Source: Leptospiraceae bacterium
Lineage (GTDB): Bacteria > Spirochaetota > Leptospiria > Leptospirales > Leptospiraceae
Length of the DNA: 64,000 nucleotides
Direction of reading: 5' to 3'
Assembly: GCA_022402465.1 (NCBI GenBank)
Contig: JAKRSH010000043.1
Coordinates: 186,001-250,000 of the forward strand
Shown here piece after piece: positions 56,399 to 64,000 of the stretch (its first letter is position 1; every line of letters starts with the position of its first letter). A program made the translations under genes and the position numbers. Under the pieces are notes generated by a model. The model was not told where the DNA came from and did no database searches. It saw only the letters and a list, made by a program, of their open reading frames with translations.

Positions 56399-58196
<1,798 letters not shown>

Positions 58197-58237: not shown

Positions 58238-58558
58238 TTACAAGGATTTTTGATCCTCATCGGAACTATTTTTATTCATCTTTTTAGGTTTCGATAAAAG
58301 CTGAATTCCATCAAAATCAATAACTTCACGATCTGGATCACCAAATGACTTCAATATATATCCTTGTTCTGTATTGGAGCTATGTAACATAATCGCAGAT
58401 AGTCTCCATTCATCACAAATTTTCTGCCAAAGTTTATCCCTGACTCTCGCGCCTATTGTAGCGACGAAAACACCTGGTTTAATTTCAATAGCTAACCGCG
58501 ACATCTCGCCCTTCTGAGATGTCTTCGGCTTCTCCAACATGATCACGACCATAAACAA
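58238..58558 (-). CDS. cas2: CRISPR-associated endoribonuclease-like Cas2, type I-E
   Basis: A 106-residue Cas2e that joins Cas1 in spacer integration. The start MFMVVIMLEKP aligns with E. coli MSMLVVVTENV, and LAIEIKPGVFVATIGARVRD matches LLEVRAGVYVGDVSAKIRE. Also present is SSNTEQGYILKSFGD. The last 15 residues (KPKKMNKNSSDEDQKSL region) are an added hydrophilic tail. It overlaps the end of cas1 by 74 bp in a different frame. Both full-length products seem needed, so the overlap is real. Confidence 0.93.
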   Translation of the reverse strand: MFMVVIMLEKPKTSQKGEMSRLAIEIKPGVFVATIGARVRDKLWQKICDEWRLSAIMLHSSNTEQGYILKSFGDPDREVIDFDGIQLLSKPKKMNKNSSDEDQKSL

Positions 58559-59369
58559 TCTCCTTAATATCTGGAATAATTCTTTTCATTAGTTTACTTG
58601 ACCGAAATGCATCACGACAGGCAAATCGAACTCTCCTTTCCACATCAAAAGGACTTTCTTTAACTACTTGAAAAGCAATTGGAATGGTAATTTCAGTCTT
58701 GTATAAATCTGCTATGTCATAAACAAAAGACATTTGCTTTCCTGTGTGAACAAAGCCAATAGCTGGAGAGAAACCTGAGCTTAAAATCGCGGCATGAACA
58801 ACTCCATACAAACAAGAATTTGCAGATGATAAGGCTCTATTTAAAGGATCACTGTAATCCCAATTAGATTGATCGTAGCTTCGTCCTTTCCACTCTACGC
58901 TTGTTTCTTCAGAATATTGTTTATAAAATTTTCTTACTCTGGCACCTTCCATACCTCGAATCTGTTCGATAGATGCTCCTTCCTTTATCGATTCATCAAA
59001 TCGCATCTGATACATGAACCTAACAATTCGATCCCTTTCAATTACATTTGCATAGGCCTCTACTTGTCTTAGTAAATTTCTACTAGAGTAAGTACCTGTA
59101 TATCCAGCAGAATAATACCTAACACCCATTTCGCCTGTCCAAGCAAGCAGACACCTTGATTCTGATATTCTCTTGACAGCTTCATGAGTTATCGTAGTTC
59201 CAGGGCCTAACATAACAAGACAAACAGTCTCTATCGGAATTGCTATGCATTTATCTAAATAATGAAAGGCAACAGATTTCTGATATTGGTCGATCTCACC
59301 TTTCTCAAAATATAAGTAAGACCAGTTGTCTTCAAATTTTGGAATTTCTTGCAAATTTCTGTTAGTCAT
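58485..59369 (-). CDS. cas1: CRISPR integrase Cas1, type I-E
   Basis: A 294-residue integrase that inserts new spacers at the leader. Catalytic residues are intact: Glu141 in RGMEGARVR, His208 in GFVHTGKQM and Asp221 in VYDIADLYK, the same numbers as in E. coli. The N-terminal beta-sandwich and the long alpha-helical part (EAYANVIERDRIVRFMYQM) are normal. It is 103 bp after vapC, and a promoter sits in that gap. Adaptation therefore should be functional. Confidence 0.97.
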   Translation of the reverse strand: MTNRNLQEIPKFEDNWSYLYFEKGEIDQYQKSVAFHYLDKCIAIPIETVCLVMLGPGTTITHEAVKRISESRCLLAWTGEMGVRYYSAGYTGTYSSRNLLRQVEAYANVIERDRIVRFMYQMRFDESIKEGASIEQIRGMEGARVRKFYKQYSEETSVEWKGRSYDQSNWDYSDPLNRALSSANSCLYGVVHAAILSSGFSPAIGFVHTGKQMSFVYDIADLYKTEITIPIAFQVVKESPFDVERRVRFACRDAFRSSKLMKRIIPDIKEIVYGRDHVGEAEDISEGRDVAVSY

Positions 59370-59444
59370 AATATATTTAATTTCGGTTAAATAATATTAG
59401 ATATTTAATTTTAAAAAATATTAAATGTTAATTTTTCGAATTCT

Positions 59445-59472
59445 TTTATATTTTAATTTATCGAAAAGTCAA
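59445..59472 (-). promoter_or_regulatory. promoter for cas1-cas2
   Basis: On the minus strand TTGACT (59472-59467) and TATAAA (59450-59445) are 16 bases apart. The -35 box begins immediately after the vapC stop codon. Transcription would start about 70 bases before cas1. Confidence 0.55.
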
Positions 59473-59850
59473 TTAAAACGAAATTACACTTAACTCAGGG
59501 ATTCTTTCAAATTGCTTATCTCGTGTAAGAAGAGTTAAGTTATTATCAATTGCTTGAGCGGCGATTATCGTATCTGGAATTTTTAAAAGCTTCATTGAGC
59601 GCAGCTCGACGATTTTATTGATTAATTTTTTATTTTCAAATTCAATATTAAACACATTCACTTCTTGTGCAAAATTTTCAAATAAGGCTAATTCATCTAT
59701 ATTAAGATTAGGATATGATAAAAACTCAATACAGGATATTATGCTTATGCTTATTGTTTCGCTTTCATTGTAAAATCGATACAAATCAAGGTCACCCTTG
59801 AGAAAATAAATGATTGCATTCGTATCAAAGAGGTAACTAATCCCATTCAT
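59473..59850 (-). CDS. VapC-type PIN-domain toxin (in cas operon)
   Basis: A 125-residue PIN-domain ribonuclease, a likely type II toxin. The four acidic catalytic positions are present: Asp9 in FDTNAIIYFLKG, Glu42 in SCIEFLS, Asp93 in KIPDTIIAAQ and Asp111 in LLTRDKQF. VapC proteins cleave specific RNAs such as tRNAs. It overlaps the antitoxin gene by 14 bp, the standard arrangement. It lies between cas6e and cas1 in the same direction, an unusual spot. A FitB-like role is an alternative. Confidence 0.88.
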   Translation of the reverse strand: MNGISYLFDTNAIIYFLKGDLDLYRFYNESETISISIISCIEFLSYPNLNIDELALFENFAQEVNVFNIEFENKKLINKIVELRSMKLLKIPDTIIAAQAIDNNLTLLTRDKQFERIPELSVISF

Positions 59851-60067
59851 TTCTTAACTTCCTTTGTTCCTCCAATGGGTCTCCCTCCCATTTCAATTTC
59901 CCAAAGTATTTATCTATTTCAGGTTTCGCTTTCTTCTCCGGCATATCCTCTGCCTTATCGAAAACTACTAATTCCATTGATTTATTCTTGTATTGCATAC
60001 CAACATCCAATGAAAGTAATAACCTTCCTTCCGAGTCGACTTCTTTCGATAACCTTAGAATCTCCAT
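59837..60067 (-). CDS. VapB-like antitoxin (in cas operon)
   Basis: A 76-residue small acidic protein in the antitoxin position before a PIN toxin. The first 35 residues look like a beta-rich dimer or DNA-binding region, and the tail KYFGKLKWEGDPLEEQRK, ending RNEWD, is a typical toxin-binding end of such antitoxins. An AAAAAGGTG ribosome site precedes the ATG. It starts 25 bp after cas6e. The DNA-binding family (AbrB-type or other) is not certain. Confidence 0.75.
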   Translation of the reverse strand: MEILRLSKEVDSEGRLLLSLDVGMQYKNKSMELVVFDKAEDMPEKKAKPEIDKYFGKLKWEGDPLEEQRKLRNEWD

Positions 60068-60092
60068 AGCATTTCACCTTTTTCCTATTCAT

Positions 60093-60893
60093 TTAGACTC
60101 TCGCAAGCAGCAACATCCCACAACCAAAGGCTTTGCCTGAACCGATTCCACTAACGTATGCGTTTTTGAAAGCTTCGGTATTGGTTACTCGGAGAATACC
60201 GGTGAAATGGACTTGTAACAGATCTAGTTCATGGATAACACTTCCATCTTTTTTCTTAGGAATTCTTTCTTTTTCCCCTTTATCGAATTGTAAGTTCAAG
60301 ATTTCAAATCCAGATTGTTCACCCTTTCGAGTTAGCCATTCTACTTGTTCATGCTCTTTGTAAATTCCCACTCTTTTCGAAGGCAAGGACTCTCTTTGTT
60401 CTTTGGAAACAGTTTGAATCAACTTTTCTAATTTATTTTTTCCTTCTAAATATTTTTCCCGATTGTCTCTGGATTCTTTTTCTGGATAGTTCTTTAAATC
60501 TTCCTTAAAAAGTCTTCTGTAATCTTTTATTTTTTTAGTTGGATTCGCTTTTAAGGAGAAGCGAAAAGAACGATCTTCTTCTATAATATTATCCAGATTC
60601 AAATTTAAAATTTGCGGTTTCCCTTTTAAAAATTCTTCTGAATGAAAGGCATTTTCCCAAAGGGGAGATATATTAGATAATACTAATATTCTTGGTTTAG
60701 CCTCTCCAGCTTGTTTGAAGTCTTCTTCAATTCGATATAAGAAATCTGGTTTGGTAGTTTCTGATTTCTGTTTTTCAAAACCCATCCATAATCTCTGATG
60801 GATTTTATAAGGATTTGTTATCCAGTTAGCCGCTTTACTACTCTTAGGATCTATTTCAAGATTTGATAGGTATATTTTGTTTAACCTCAACAT
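60093..60893 (-). CDS. cas6e: crRNA endonuclease Cas6e (CasE)
   Basis: Cuts pre-crRNA inside each repeat and stays on the 3' hairpin in Cascade. It is read from ATG 60893 (266 residues), where MLRLNKIYLSNLEID matches the MYLSKVII opening; a longer frame to 60920 is less likely. The catalytic His32 is in PYKIHQRLWMGF. The C-terminal Gly-rich loop is GIGSGKAFGCGMLLL. It is longer than E. coli Cas6e (199), with an insertion around residues 130-150. It overlaps cas5e by 38 bp. Confidence 0.92.
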   Translation of the reverse strand: MLRLNKIYLSNLEIDPKSSKAANWITNPYKIHQRLWMGFEKQKSETTKPDFLYRIEEDFKQAGEAKPRILVLSNISPLWENAFHSEEFLKGKPQILNLNLDNIIEEDRSFRFSLKANPTKKIKDYRRLFKEDLKNYPEKESRDNREKYLEGKNKLEKLIQTVSKEQRESLPSKRVGIYKEHEQVEWLTRKGEQSGFEILNLQFDKGEKERIPKKKDGSVIHELDLLQVHFTGILRVTNTEAFKNAYVSGIGSGKAFGCGMLLLARV

Positions 60894-61566
60894 AAAATTT
60901 ATAAACTTCTCTTTGCGCAAATACTCGCAAGTTAGGATTTACAACTGTGTCACGTACTAAACTTTTTTTCATATTAATGTCTAATTTTTCCTCTGTAACA
61001 CAAGCAAATCTATTATTCTCTTTGCCTTCACTATTAGATTCAGATTGTAATTGTCTGAGAATTTCAGGAATAGTTTTTAATTTTTCGAACGCATCCTTTG
61101 CATTACTTGAATTAACCTCTTCATTCAAGTACAAGGGCAAGGTTGGTGAGCAGGCTTTTCTTCCGAGAAATGGAATCCAAACAGGACTTCCAAGTGCATT
61201 TTTTACTTTGTCAAGAACTGAATTTGACTTAGAACTTATAAGAACACTAAAAGCTCCATCCATTAAATAATTGCGATACGATTGCACTGCATTATCATTT
61301 ACTTTCCCATCTGCTTTTAATGTATTCATAATGGTATGATAATCTCTTTGAATCGAACATTTAATGTCCTCTCTTGCCGAAACAGAAATTGATTCTCCTA
61401 ATTCTACGATTTTATCTGATTCATTTTGGTTCCAACCTAAACAGCAAGACAGAATCCCAAGTATGGCGCTCTTGGTTGGAAATGCGCCAGTCCCGCGCAC
61501 GTCCCAGTAATCGCCTTCCCCGAATGACATTAGCGGTGCTTGCAATCTTAATACAAGATAACGCAT
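60856..61566 (-). CDS. cas5e: Cascade subunit Cas5e (CasD)
   Basis: A 236-residue RAMP subunit that caps the crRNA 5' handle. The N-terminal YLVLRLQAPLMSFGEGDYWD and GAFPTKSAILGILSCCLG match Cas5 family openings, and GSPVWIPFLGRKACSPTLPL is the typical Cas5 thumb/G-loop stretch. It begins 1 bp after the cas7e stop. It overlaps cas6e. Confidence 0.95.
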   Translation of the reverse strand: MRYLVLRLQAPLMSFGEGDYWDVRGTGAFPTKSAILGILSCCLGWNQNESDKIVELGESISVSAREDIKCSIQRDYHTIMNTLKADGKVNDNAVQSYRNYLMDGAFSVLISSKSNSVLDKVKNALGSPVWIPFLGRKACSPTLPLYLNEEVNSSNAKDAFEKLKTIPEILRQLQSESNSEGKENNRFACVTEEKLDINMKKSLVRDTVVNPNLRVFAQREVYKFYVEVKQNIPIKS

Positions 61567-61567
61567 A

Positions 61568-62737
61568 TTATGCTCCGGTATGTGTTTCGAGCCAAGTAAT
61601 TAATTCAGACAGTTTTACAAAACTATTATCTGAAAATTCATTACCAAGTTTATCTTCATTAGTAAAAATAAAATGAGCTTGGTCTTTCATTGGTAGGGAA
61701 AATGCATCTCTATTCTTCCTTGCATATTTTGCAAAAACTTCTATCGACTTATCATTCAAAGATAATTTATTATCTGGAGTAACAGGTTTGATAAATGCAT
61801 TCGCAAGATTGACTGGAATCTTTTTGTTCTTAATTTCTATTCCTATAAAATGCGGAGGATTGTGTGCCGCAAAAGAATTTTGTTTACCAGTTGGATTTGA
61901 TAAAGCTGCCGAATTGACTAAAGCAGATATTGCAATTTGAGCAAGCTTTTTATCTTCTCCAATAGACTTCACAAATGCATCATAGTCAATGGCTATGTAT
62001 TTATAAAAACAAGCACTTGTAAATTCTGTTTCCCCCAAATGCGCAGAGCCAGAGTCTTCCCTATAAGTATTACTCAAATCATCTACAGCAGTAAAATAAT
62101 CAAAATCAACTGAGTGTTTATTAACAGAAATTGCATGAGCAACTTGACAAGCGGCGCTCACATCTTCAAATGCTTCCATAGTTGTCATTCTACCAAATAA
62201 GGCTACATCGACAGGTTTTGCTTTTAAATCCTTTAAGGCTTTCTGGATAATTGTGATTAAACCCTTATTGTCTATTTTTTTTATATCTATATCTTTTTCT
62301 GAAATAACATAATCAATAATTTTATTCAATTCATTTTCACCGTAAAACATTAGTTGTGCTGTTTCAAGAAATGCTTCTTGCTTAGCATCCAATTCTTTCT
62401 TTTTGTCTTTTGTTTTCTCTTCGCCTTCCGATTTTTTCTTGTCACTTTTTCCAATCGTAGTAAGTTTCTCTGCCCAAATTTGTGCTACTTCTGCAGTAAC
62501 TCCCTTTTCAATTAATCTTTTCTTAACTTCTTCTGGTAGAAACTTAGTTCTACCACCTAAACTTGTAGTCAAAGAATCTTCGAAAAAACTGGACTTGCGG
62601 ATACTTCTCTTTAGGCACTGACTAGATATTCTAGTCCTAGTTACTCCTCCGAATACGCAGTCTTTTACTGAGCCTGTATCATCTCTATTCAAATTGGAAG
62701 GGGCGTGGTTTTGTAGTATGTGAATTTCTATTAGCAT
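61568..62737 (-). CDS. cas7e: Cascade backbone subunit Cas7e (CasC)
   Basis: A 389-residue RAMP subunit, about six copies of which coat the spacer. The N-terminal IHILQNHAPSNLNRDDTGSV and RTRISSQCLKRSIRKS are diagnostic for Cse4/CasC, and TTMEAFEDVSAACQVAHAIS is also typical. It has a Lys-rich insert (about 100-115). AAGGAGAA before the ATG is a strong ribosome site, as suits a subunit needed in many copies. Confidence 0.97.
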   Translation of the reverse strand: MLIEIHILQNHAPSNLNRDDTGSVKDCVFGGVTRTRISSQCLKRSIRKSSFFEDSLTTSLGGRTKFLPEEVKKRLIEKGVTAEVAQIWAEKLTTIGKSDKKKSEGEEKTKDKKKELDAKQEAFLETAQLMFYGENELNKIIDYVISEKDIDIKKIDNKGLITIIQKALKDLKAKPVDVALFGRMTTMEAFEDVSAACQVAHAISVNKHSVDFDYFTAVDDLSNTYREDSGSAHLGETEFTSACFYKYIAIDYDAFVKSIGEDKKLAQIAISALVNSAALSNPTGKQNSFAAHNPPHFIGIEIKNKKIPVNLANAFIKPVTPDNKLSLNDKSIEVFAKYARKNRDAFSLPMKDQAHFIFTNEDKLGNEFSDNSFVKLSELITWLETHTGA

Positions 62738-62768
62738 TTTAATTCTCCTTTTATTTTAAAAAAATCCT

Positions 62769-63329
62769 TTATTCATTATCTAAATCAGAATCCTCTGATT
62801 CTTCTGTACTGAGGTCACCATCTTGTGCATTGGTATTTTTATCAGAAATAGATTTATAATAACCCTCTGCCCATTTTCTCTGTACCCATTGCTTGTCCCC
62901 ATTCCAGTTATATAGATTTTTCAATAAAATAGAAAAATCTATTTTTATATTCTGAGATTTAAGCAATTTAATAGCTTGTCGTAATCTGTAGCTTAATTGC
63001 TCTTTGTCGCTTGCCGTTAGCAATGCTCTAAATCGAATATCTTTATCCTCTTTTTGTTCTGGGTTATATGCTTCTTGAAAAGCTTTTCCAAAATTAAAAG
63101 AATCTGAATAATAGGGATTATCCTCTTTCCTATGATACGTTGCATACAAACAAGCAACCAAAGATTTTTCATACGAGTTAATAAATCCCAATCTGCCGAG
63201 AACCGGAAATAATTTTGTATCTTCCAATGGATTCTTATTGCATCTTCTTAATATTGCCAAGTCACCGGATCCTAGTTTCGAAATTTTATCAATGTCCTCT
63301 TGAAATGTATTTTTTGTAAAAGTTGTCAT
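62769..63329 (-). CDS. cse2: Cascade small subunit Cse2 (CasB, Cas11e)
   Basis: A 186-residue helical protein, two copies of which form the belly of Cascade. GDLAILRRCNKNPLEDTKLFP and RFRALLTASDKEQLSYRLRQ match the family's conserved stretches. The last 20 residues are acidic (STEESEDSDLDNE), an addition to the usual 160. An AAGGAG site precedes the ATG, which overlaps the cas8e stop (ATGA). Confidence 0.95.
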   Translation of the reverse strand: MTTFTKNTFQEDIDKISKLGSGDLAILRRCNKNPLEDTKLFPVLGRLGFINSYEKSLVACLYATYHRKEDNPYYSDSFNFGKAFQEAYNPEQKEDKDIRFRALLTASDKEQLSYRLRQAIKLLKSQNIKIDFSILLKNLYNWNGDKQWVQRKWAEGYYKSISDKNTNAQDGDLSTEESEDSDLDNE

Positions 63330-64000
63330 TTGTTCTCCTTATTCTTTTTGTGAAAAAGTAATTTTGCATAAATCATTCTTTCTAAATATTTTCTACCGTT
63401 CTCATATTGTTTTAAATTTTTCGGATTAGCGATTAGTTTTTCTGTGTGGTTACGAAATGTTTTGCGAACATGCTCGGCAAGCATCTCTCGCCATTCGATT
63501 AAAATTAGATTAGAATCTTCTTCATCAGACAAACGATTTAAAGACTCTTCAAAGTTAGAGCCGATTTCATGCCAGTAGGCTGATTGAAATAAATTAGTTA
63601 TATTTGAGATAGCTTTTCTTTTTCGATCTCCATTTAAGTTATCACTTTTTTTGATTAAGGATTTTATTAGTGCTGTCTTTAAAGCTGACTCAAATTGGCT
63701 TGTTTCAAAAACAAAATATTTGATAACAGTTTTAATATCCTCAGACTCAATAAAATCGGGGTTAAATGGAAATGTATATTCGGATGTTTGAAATACTTTG
63801 TCTTGTTTAGTCGAAACACCAAAGACAAATAGTTTTATAGAAAATTTTTGGATTTGCTTGCTATTCAAAGCCCGCTCAAGTATTTTTGGTCTTAATATAC
63901 TTGATTTTTTTTCCTCGTTCCGTTCCGAAAAAATAAATGCAGGATAATCTTTCCACGCCGGTAAATTTTTGCCGTTTGGCGATATTTTTTTTACTTCATT
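63326..64000 (-). CDS. cas8e: Cascade large subunit Cas8e (Cse1, CasA), N-terminus beyond window
   Basis: The C-terminal 224 codons are visible; the frame is open from 63326 through the right edge with no stop. The large subunit recognises the PAM and starts R-loop formation. The visible part includes ISPNGKNLPAWKDYPAFIF (where family members have a conserved loop) and the C-terminal four-helix bundle (ending YLERMIYAKLLFHKKNKENK). Cas3 is expected further right. Assignment leans on operon position and this C-terminal match. Confidence 0.85.
   Translation of the reverse strand, partial: NEVKKISPNGKNLPAWKDYPAFIFSERNEEKKSSILRPKILERALNSKQIQKFSIKLFVFGVSTKQDKVFQTSEYTFPFNPDFIESEDIKTVIKYFVFETSQFESALKTALIKSLIKKSDNLNGDRKRKAISNITNLFQSAYWHEIGSNFEESLNRLSDEEDSNLILIEWREMLAEHVRKTFRNHTEKLIANPKNLKQYENGRKYLERMIYAKLLFHKKNKENK

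Follow-up and report, generated by a model that had tools for sequence, protein, structure and literature searches.

The window, i.e. the whole stretch of 64,000 nucleotides that has been analysed, carries a type I-E cas operon on its minus strand, and inside this operon, on the strand of the cas genes, a protein toxin-antitoxin pair of the VapBC type is located. The order on the minus strand is cas3, cse1, cse2, cas7e, cas5e, cas6e, antitoxin, PIN toxin, cas1e, cas2e and CRISPR array, and the operon is complete: every gene by which type I-E is defined is present together with an array. The 3' part of cse1 (63326..64000, PF09481/TIGR02547) reaches the end of the window, while the rest of this gene and cas3 lie beyond it, according to the annotation of locus L029; cse2 (62769..63329, TIGR02548), cas7e (61568..62737, TIGR01869), cas5e (60856..61566, TIGR01868) and cas6e (60093..60920, PF08798 at 4.5e-47 and TIGR01907) follow. 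On the other side of the pair are located cas1e (58485..59369, TIGR03638 at 6.8e-106), cas2e (58238..58558, TIGR01873) and the array (56400..58196), all three on the minus strand as well; the 30 identical 28-nt repeats of the array enclose 29 spacers, 28 of which are distinct, so that one spacer is present twice. By this order, the pair separates the effector (interference) genes from cas1-cas2, as the initial annotation had proposed.

The toxin gene, vapC (59473..59850, minus strand), encodes a PIN-domain protein of 125 aa, whose match to PF01850 (E=5.5e-14) exceeds the curated cut-off; the acidic residues of the PIN set, D9, E42, D93 and D111, show no variation in an alignment of 14 relatives, which bears out the earlier description of a PIN toxin with all four acidic residues. 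Searched with the PIN profile, chain B of the solved VapBC complex 7by2, its toxin, is found at E=3e-20, while the NCBIfam model NF047863, VapC (tRNA-fMet), scores 32.9 bits on the window toxin against a cut-off of 140. PADLOC assigns no defence family to the PIN protein and gives the antitoxin a match at chance level only.

The antitoxin gene, vapB (59837..60067, minus strand), encodes 76 aa, lies directly upstream of the toxin gene and overlaps it by 14 bp, a pairing that is retained in the relatives and that, like the catalytic set of the toxin, agrees with a module of the VapBC type. Its tail reads FGKLKWEGDPLEEQRKLRNEWD, and the C-terminal pattern G..(W).D.L..Q..LR.EW is shared among 15 PIN-linked partners, the small proteins that accompany the PIN relatives; a profile of these partners has a weak match (E=0.022) to the terminal part of the 7by2 antitoxin. 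The likeness to the 7by2/7by3 complex therefore lies in the PIN match and in an antitoxin tail with D..E.Q..LR.EW, whereas the 7by2 antitoxin is a CopG-family protein according to its deposited record, the N-terminus of the window antitoxin differs and has no library match, and the window pair is located inside a cas operon. The window antitoxin by itself matches no Pfam or NCBIfam family; NF050009 (TA_VapB) is matched weakly by 4 of the 15 antitoxin relatives and is not matched by the window protein. A foreign composition of the pair was considered and set aside: vapC is AT-richer (29.6% GC) and the GC3 of vapB is elevated (42.9%), yet the codon scores are not clearly alien.

A spacer of 25 bp (60068..60092, minus strand) separates the stop of cas6e from the start of vapB and leaves little room for a separate promoter; no promoter-like match is present directly upstream of vapB on the minus strand, and the matches across the whole locus stand at the level of shuffled sequence (44 vs 41.9). 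The common strand, the tight spacing and the lack of a visible promoter faintly suggest that vapBC depends on cas transcription. Between the stop of vapC and the start of cas1 lies an AT-rich gap of 103 bp with 11.7% GC (59370..59472, minus strand); an imperfect 15-nt inverted repeat (87%) is found at the ends of this gap (window 59378-59486). The position, the strand, the distance to cas6e and the overlap of the two reading frames are all confirmed as first annotated, and the insertion scars that were named as a sign against the module have been looked for: the flanks of the window vapBC contain no such scars, no target-site duplication and no transposase. An origin from a phage or a plasmid was also rejected: neither plasmids nor phage DNA gave a match, IMG/VR yielded a single weak relative, and one PHROG of unknown function was weakly similar.

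Two further explanations are addressed by the locus itself. The first is an error of assembly or annotation, which is barely credible: the genome is assembled in 45 contigs, but the module lies inside a contig of 378 kb, consists of two intact reading frames with conserved tails and active sites, and has analogous arrangements in other genomes. The second is a guard of the CreTA kind, where Cascade with a crRNA-like guide would repress the toxin and the loss of Cascade would de-repress it. CreTA is indeed a toxin-antitoxin unit that guards type I effectors, can sit between cas genes and is potentially addictive (PMC8501985, PMC9458426), but its toxin is an RNA and its guide is flanked by repeats, while the window holds two proteins, one of them a protein antitoxin, and no repeat-like element. 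A search of the slot for a CreTA-type element gave a best repeat match of 14/28, below the shuffled maxima, and spacer matches of 20/33, as against 20-21 in shuffles; we consider such a guard highly improbable here. The initial annotation had already noted that a protein pair inside I-E would differ in arrangement from CreTA.

Toxin-antitoxin modules in related cas operons

Our survey covers 393 Spirochaetota genomes, 48 of which belong to the class of the window, with eight species in its family and one in its genus. The neighbourhoods of the 21 Cas1e-like loci found among the 393 genomes have been inspected, as has every Cas1 locus within the class. Since the genus is represented by one species in the sample, the window genome is probably not Leptospira sensu stricto, and the earlier attribution of the host to Leptospira is unsupported; none of the genera sampled in the class reaches a size that would suit Leptospira.

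The order cas6e-vapBC-cas1 occurs in one of the 21 Cas1e loci, that of the window. The expectation that this order would be kept in related I-E loci has thus failed; the pair is not a conserved accessory gene of type I-E, which would occupy the same slot in related loci, and a dedicated, conserved guard at the cas6e|cas1 junction is not supported. The more general idea, that toxin-antitoxin modules are housed in cas operons, fares better, as related genomes carry VapBC, HicBA, UPF0175-DUF3368 and MNT-HepT modules in internal slots. In genomes G139 (L022), G206 (L023), G018 and G325, cas1 directly follows cas6e or cas5e; no toxin-antitoxin module is present inside the I-E operons of G005, G018 and G038, which belong to the class of the window, or inside the I-E loci outside the class (0/15).

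The cas6e|cas1 slot is occupied by different genes in the operons that are closest to that of the window. In G033, whose effector genes are the sister of those of the window (support 100/99), the slot holds a HicBA module (L035 6861-7335; HicA, PF07927 at 7e-18), and in G005 it holds a Y1/IS200-like transposase (L021 9401-10000), which begins 3 bp after cas6e and ends 0 bp before cas1. The transposase of G005 has the look of the REP-associated type; a similar Y1 protein is located between cas5 and cas4-cas1 in the MYXAN operon of G006 (L161 14702-15244).

Other slots are occupied as well. The I-E operon of G008 contains, between cas7e and cas5e, a VapBC module homologous to that of the window (39% identity), which overlaps the cas gene on either side by 4 bp, and the type I-MYXAN operon of G031 contains two VapBC modules of different families, at cmx8|cas7 and at cas5|cas4-cas1 (L037 7555-10408). 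In G045, a decayed I-E operon (fragments of cas3, cse1 and cas7) adjoins a VapBC module (L036 1009-4168) whose toxin has an in-frame stop. Homologues of the window VapBC are thus represented in G031 and G045 as well as in G008. A UPF0175-DUF3368 pair is located between cas8 and cas7 in the I-C operon of G044 and between cas5 and cas4-cas1 in the MYXAN operon of G029; the I-C operon of G018 has an MNT-HepT module between cas7 and cas4, with an apparently frame-broken HepT; and nucleotidyltransferases with weak AbiEii/DUF6036 similarity precede cas4-cas1 or cas4 in G006 and G007. The subtypes of G044, G029, G006, G007, G039 and the I-C operon of G018 are named by sequence resemblance, not by profile search. 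The I-B operons (G020, G021) and the class 2 loci of the class have no toxin-antitoxin module between core genes.

The class has 15 operons of the types I-E, I-C and MYXAN; by our reading, at least one Pfam-supported internal toxin-antitoxin module is present in 7 of them, or in 9 of the 15 when the two nucleotidyltransferases are counted, and the effector|adaptation junction is the site of 7 of the 10 modules in these operons. These arrangements are best read as the repeated capture of type II modules by the type I cas operons of the class, with rapid turnover.

Ancestry of the toxin and of the operon

In the tree of VapC relatives, a subclade of seven members (support 85/89) includes four that are linked to cas genes, as against none of the 16 other relatives (p=0.004), and internal toxin-antitoxin modules occur in 3 of 6 I-E operons of the class as against 0 of 15 outside it (Fisher p=0.015); both values were computed after the pattern had been seen and on related loci, and are thus descriptive. 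Outside the class, cas genes are found near none of the 26 VapC relatives (E<=1e-9). The window VapC is the sister of a solitary VapC (support 89/85) in G003, a genome without cas1; the VapC family, therefore, does not need CRISPR. For the cas-linked VapCs the tree needs three changes, although a single clade of them is not rejected (p-AU 0.072); several captures are more likely than one, because the slots and the CRISPR subtypes differ.

The internal gaps of the 15 operons counted above (I-E, I-C and MYXAN) contain four PF01850 genes, where 0.48 are expected (Poisson P=0.0015), or three when the seed genome is removed (P=0.013), a modest enrichment under an assumption of random placement that is too strict, given the clustering of toxin-antitoxin genes in islands, and also too lax, as insertions into operons are normally selected against.

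The operon of the window (58238-63868) is itself a mosaic. Its effector genes are nearest to those of G033 (63% identity for cas7) and group with them, rejecting G005 (p-AU 1e-58), while cas6-cas1-cas2 are closest to those of G005 and its group (64%, 73% and 65% identity to G005 for cas6, cas1 and cas2, respectively; 48% between cas6 of the window and that of G033), with cas1-cas2 rejecting G033 (p-AU 1e-5). Since cas6 follows cas1, the breakpoint of the mosaic is at cas5|cas6 and not at the VapBC module itself.

A mosaic of this kind would also suit a mobile toxin-antitoxin module that has merely landed in a tolerant, recombination-prone cas operon and from which CRISPR gains nothing. We regard this as a serious alternative, quite possible though not our first choice. 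It would accommodate the turnover of the slot among related operons, which hold VapBC, HicBA, a Y1 transposase or nothing, and the presence in I-E operons of other cargo, such as KilA-N and DUF1016; it is also consistent with the large PIN complement of certain related genomes, which reaches 51 genes, although the whole genome of the window has only four PF01850 genes. A module that lands by chance is, furthermore, harder to reconcile with the concentration of cas linkage in one VapC subclade, with the maintenance of the cas strand and of the tight packing of starts and stops, and with the clean flanks of the window module.

Proposed capture and possible cis-addiction

Loss of CRISPR-Cas loci is frequent, and the known route by which a type I system makes itself addictive is, to our knowledge, CreTA. 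The reading that we prefer, at a probability of roughly 0.45, is that vapBC is a chromosomal type II module that has been captured at the cas6e|cas1 junction of the I-E operon, where it probably acts by cis-addiction. The pair would probably be read from the cas transcript, and the tail of the antitoxin would cap the PIN ribonuclease; should the operon be deleted or replaced, the short-lived antitoxin would no longer be made, and the stable toxin, if toxic as expected of its family, would then cleave RNA, with a tRNA as the most probable target, and growth would stop. Cells that keep the operon would thereby be favoured, judging from what toxin-antitoxin modules do, and unrelated modules may have taken the same role in the same or in neighbouring slots of the class, with fast turnover.

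The comparison of the operons bears on cis-addiction in both directions. The decayed I-E operon of G045 next to a VapC with a stop codon is what would be expected if the loss of the toxin permits the loss of the operon, while the apparently broken HepT beside the intact I-C operon of G018 is a poor fit to a strong guard. Against addiction stands the fact that the module is not retained in place, as it is absent from the three module-free I-E operons of the class and from the 15 loci outside it.

The same operon structure, with vapBC and the Cascade genes in one unit, could alternatively serve a back-up abortive defence, where a phage that shuts off host transcription or Cascade expression would deplete VapB, and VapC would halt growth once CRISPR has failed; a coupling of immunity and suicide is a published hypothesis (PMC3506569). 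We consider this unlikely, as no sensing part is present, PADLOC recognises neither protein above chance and most I-E loci lack the module.

Extended from the window to the class, cis-addiction becomes a more tentative proposal, possible but somewhat doubtful: the type I cas operons of the class would have a slot with exchangeable contents, located mostly at the effector|adaptation junction, that repeatedly recruits unrelated protein toxin-antitoxin modules as guards against the loss of the operon, as a type II counterpart of CreTA. If this is true, the unrelated protein modules in one slot of sister operons would be a case of convergent capture, and the presence in cas operons of nuclease genes without a role in immunity would be accounted for.

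Earlier reports and other genes in cas loci

Toxin-antitoxin modules near cas genes have already been reported. In Table 3 of Makarova 2006 (PMC1462988), genes of PIN, COG2442, HicB and AbrB families are listed as "loosely associated with CASS"; the passages on this point describe single associations, whereas here several families occur repeatedly within type I operons of the same class and have a slot in common. In the FLSHclust survey (Altae-Tran 2023, PMC10910872), the main-text passages on this subject state that numerous toxin-antitoxin modules are found in association with CRISPR and could protect the cas genes, and describe neither VapBC in type I-E nor an exchange of modules at the effector|adaptation junction. 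A 2025 review of the coupling between toxin-antitoxin modules and CRISPR (PMC12737573) does not mention VapBC, and we have found, in open-access full texts, no description of VapBC within an I-E operon or of unrelated toxin-antitoxin modules that exchange in one slot.

Genes of other kinds are lodged in further cas loci of the survey. Outside the class, a DUF1016/YhcG nuclease is located between cse1 and cse2 in the I-E operon of G303 (L115 9992-11032), and in that of G374 a KilA-N protein separates cas3 from cse1 (L111 6926-7771). In G037, cas1 is separated from a cas2-like gene by a long protein that resembles a reverse transcriptase (L159 1-3748), and a Cas12a-like gene of G032 is closely preceded by two short reading frames, one of which encodes a small nucleotidyltransferase (L175 747-1587).
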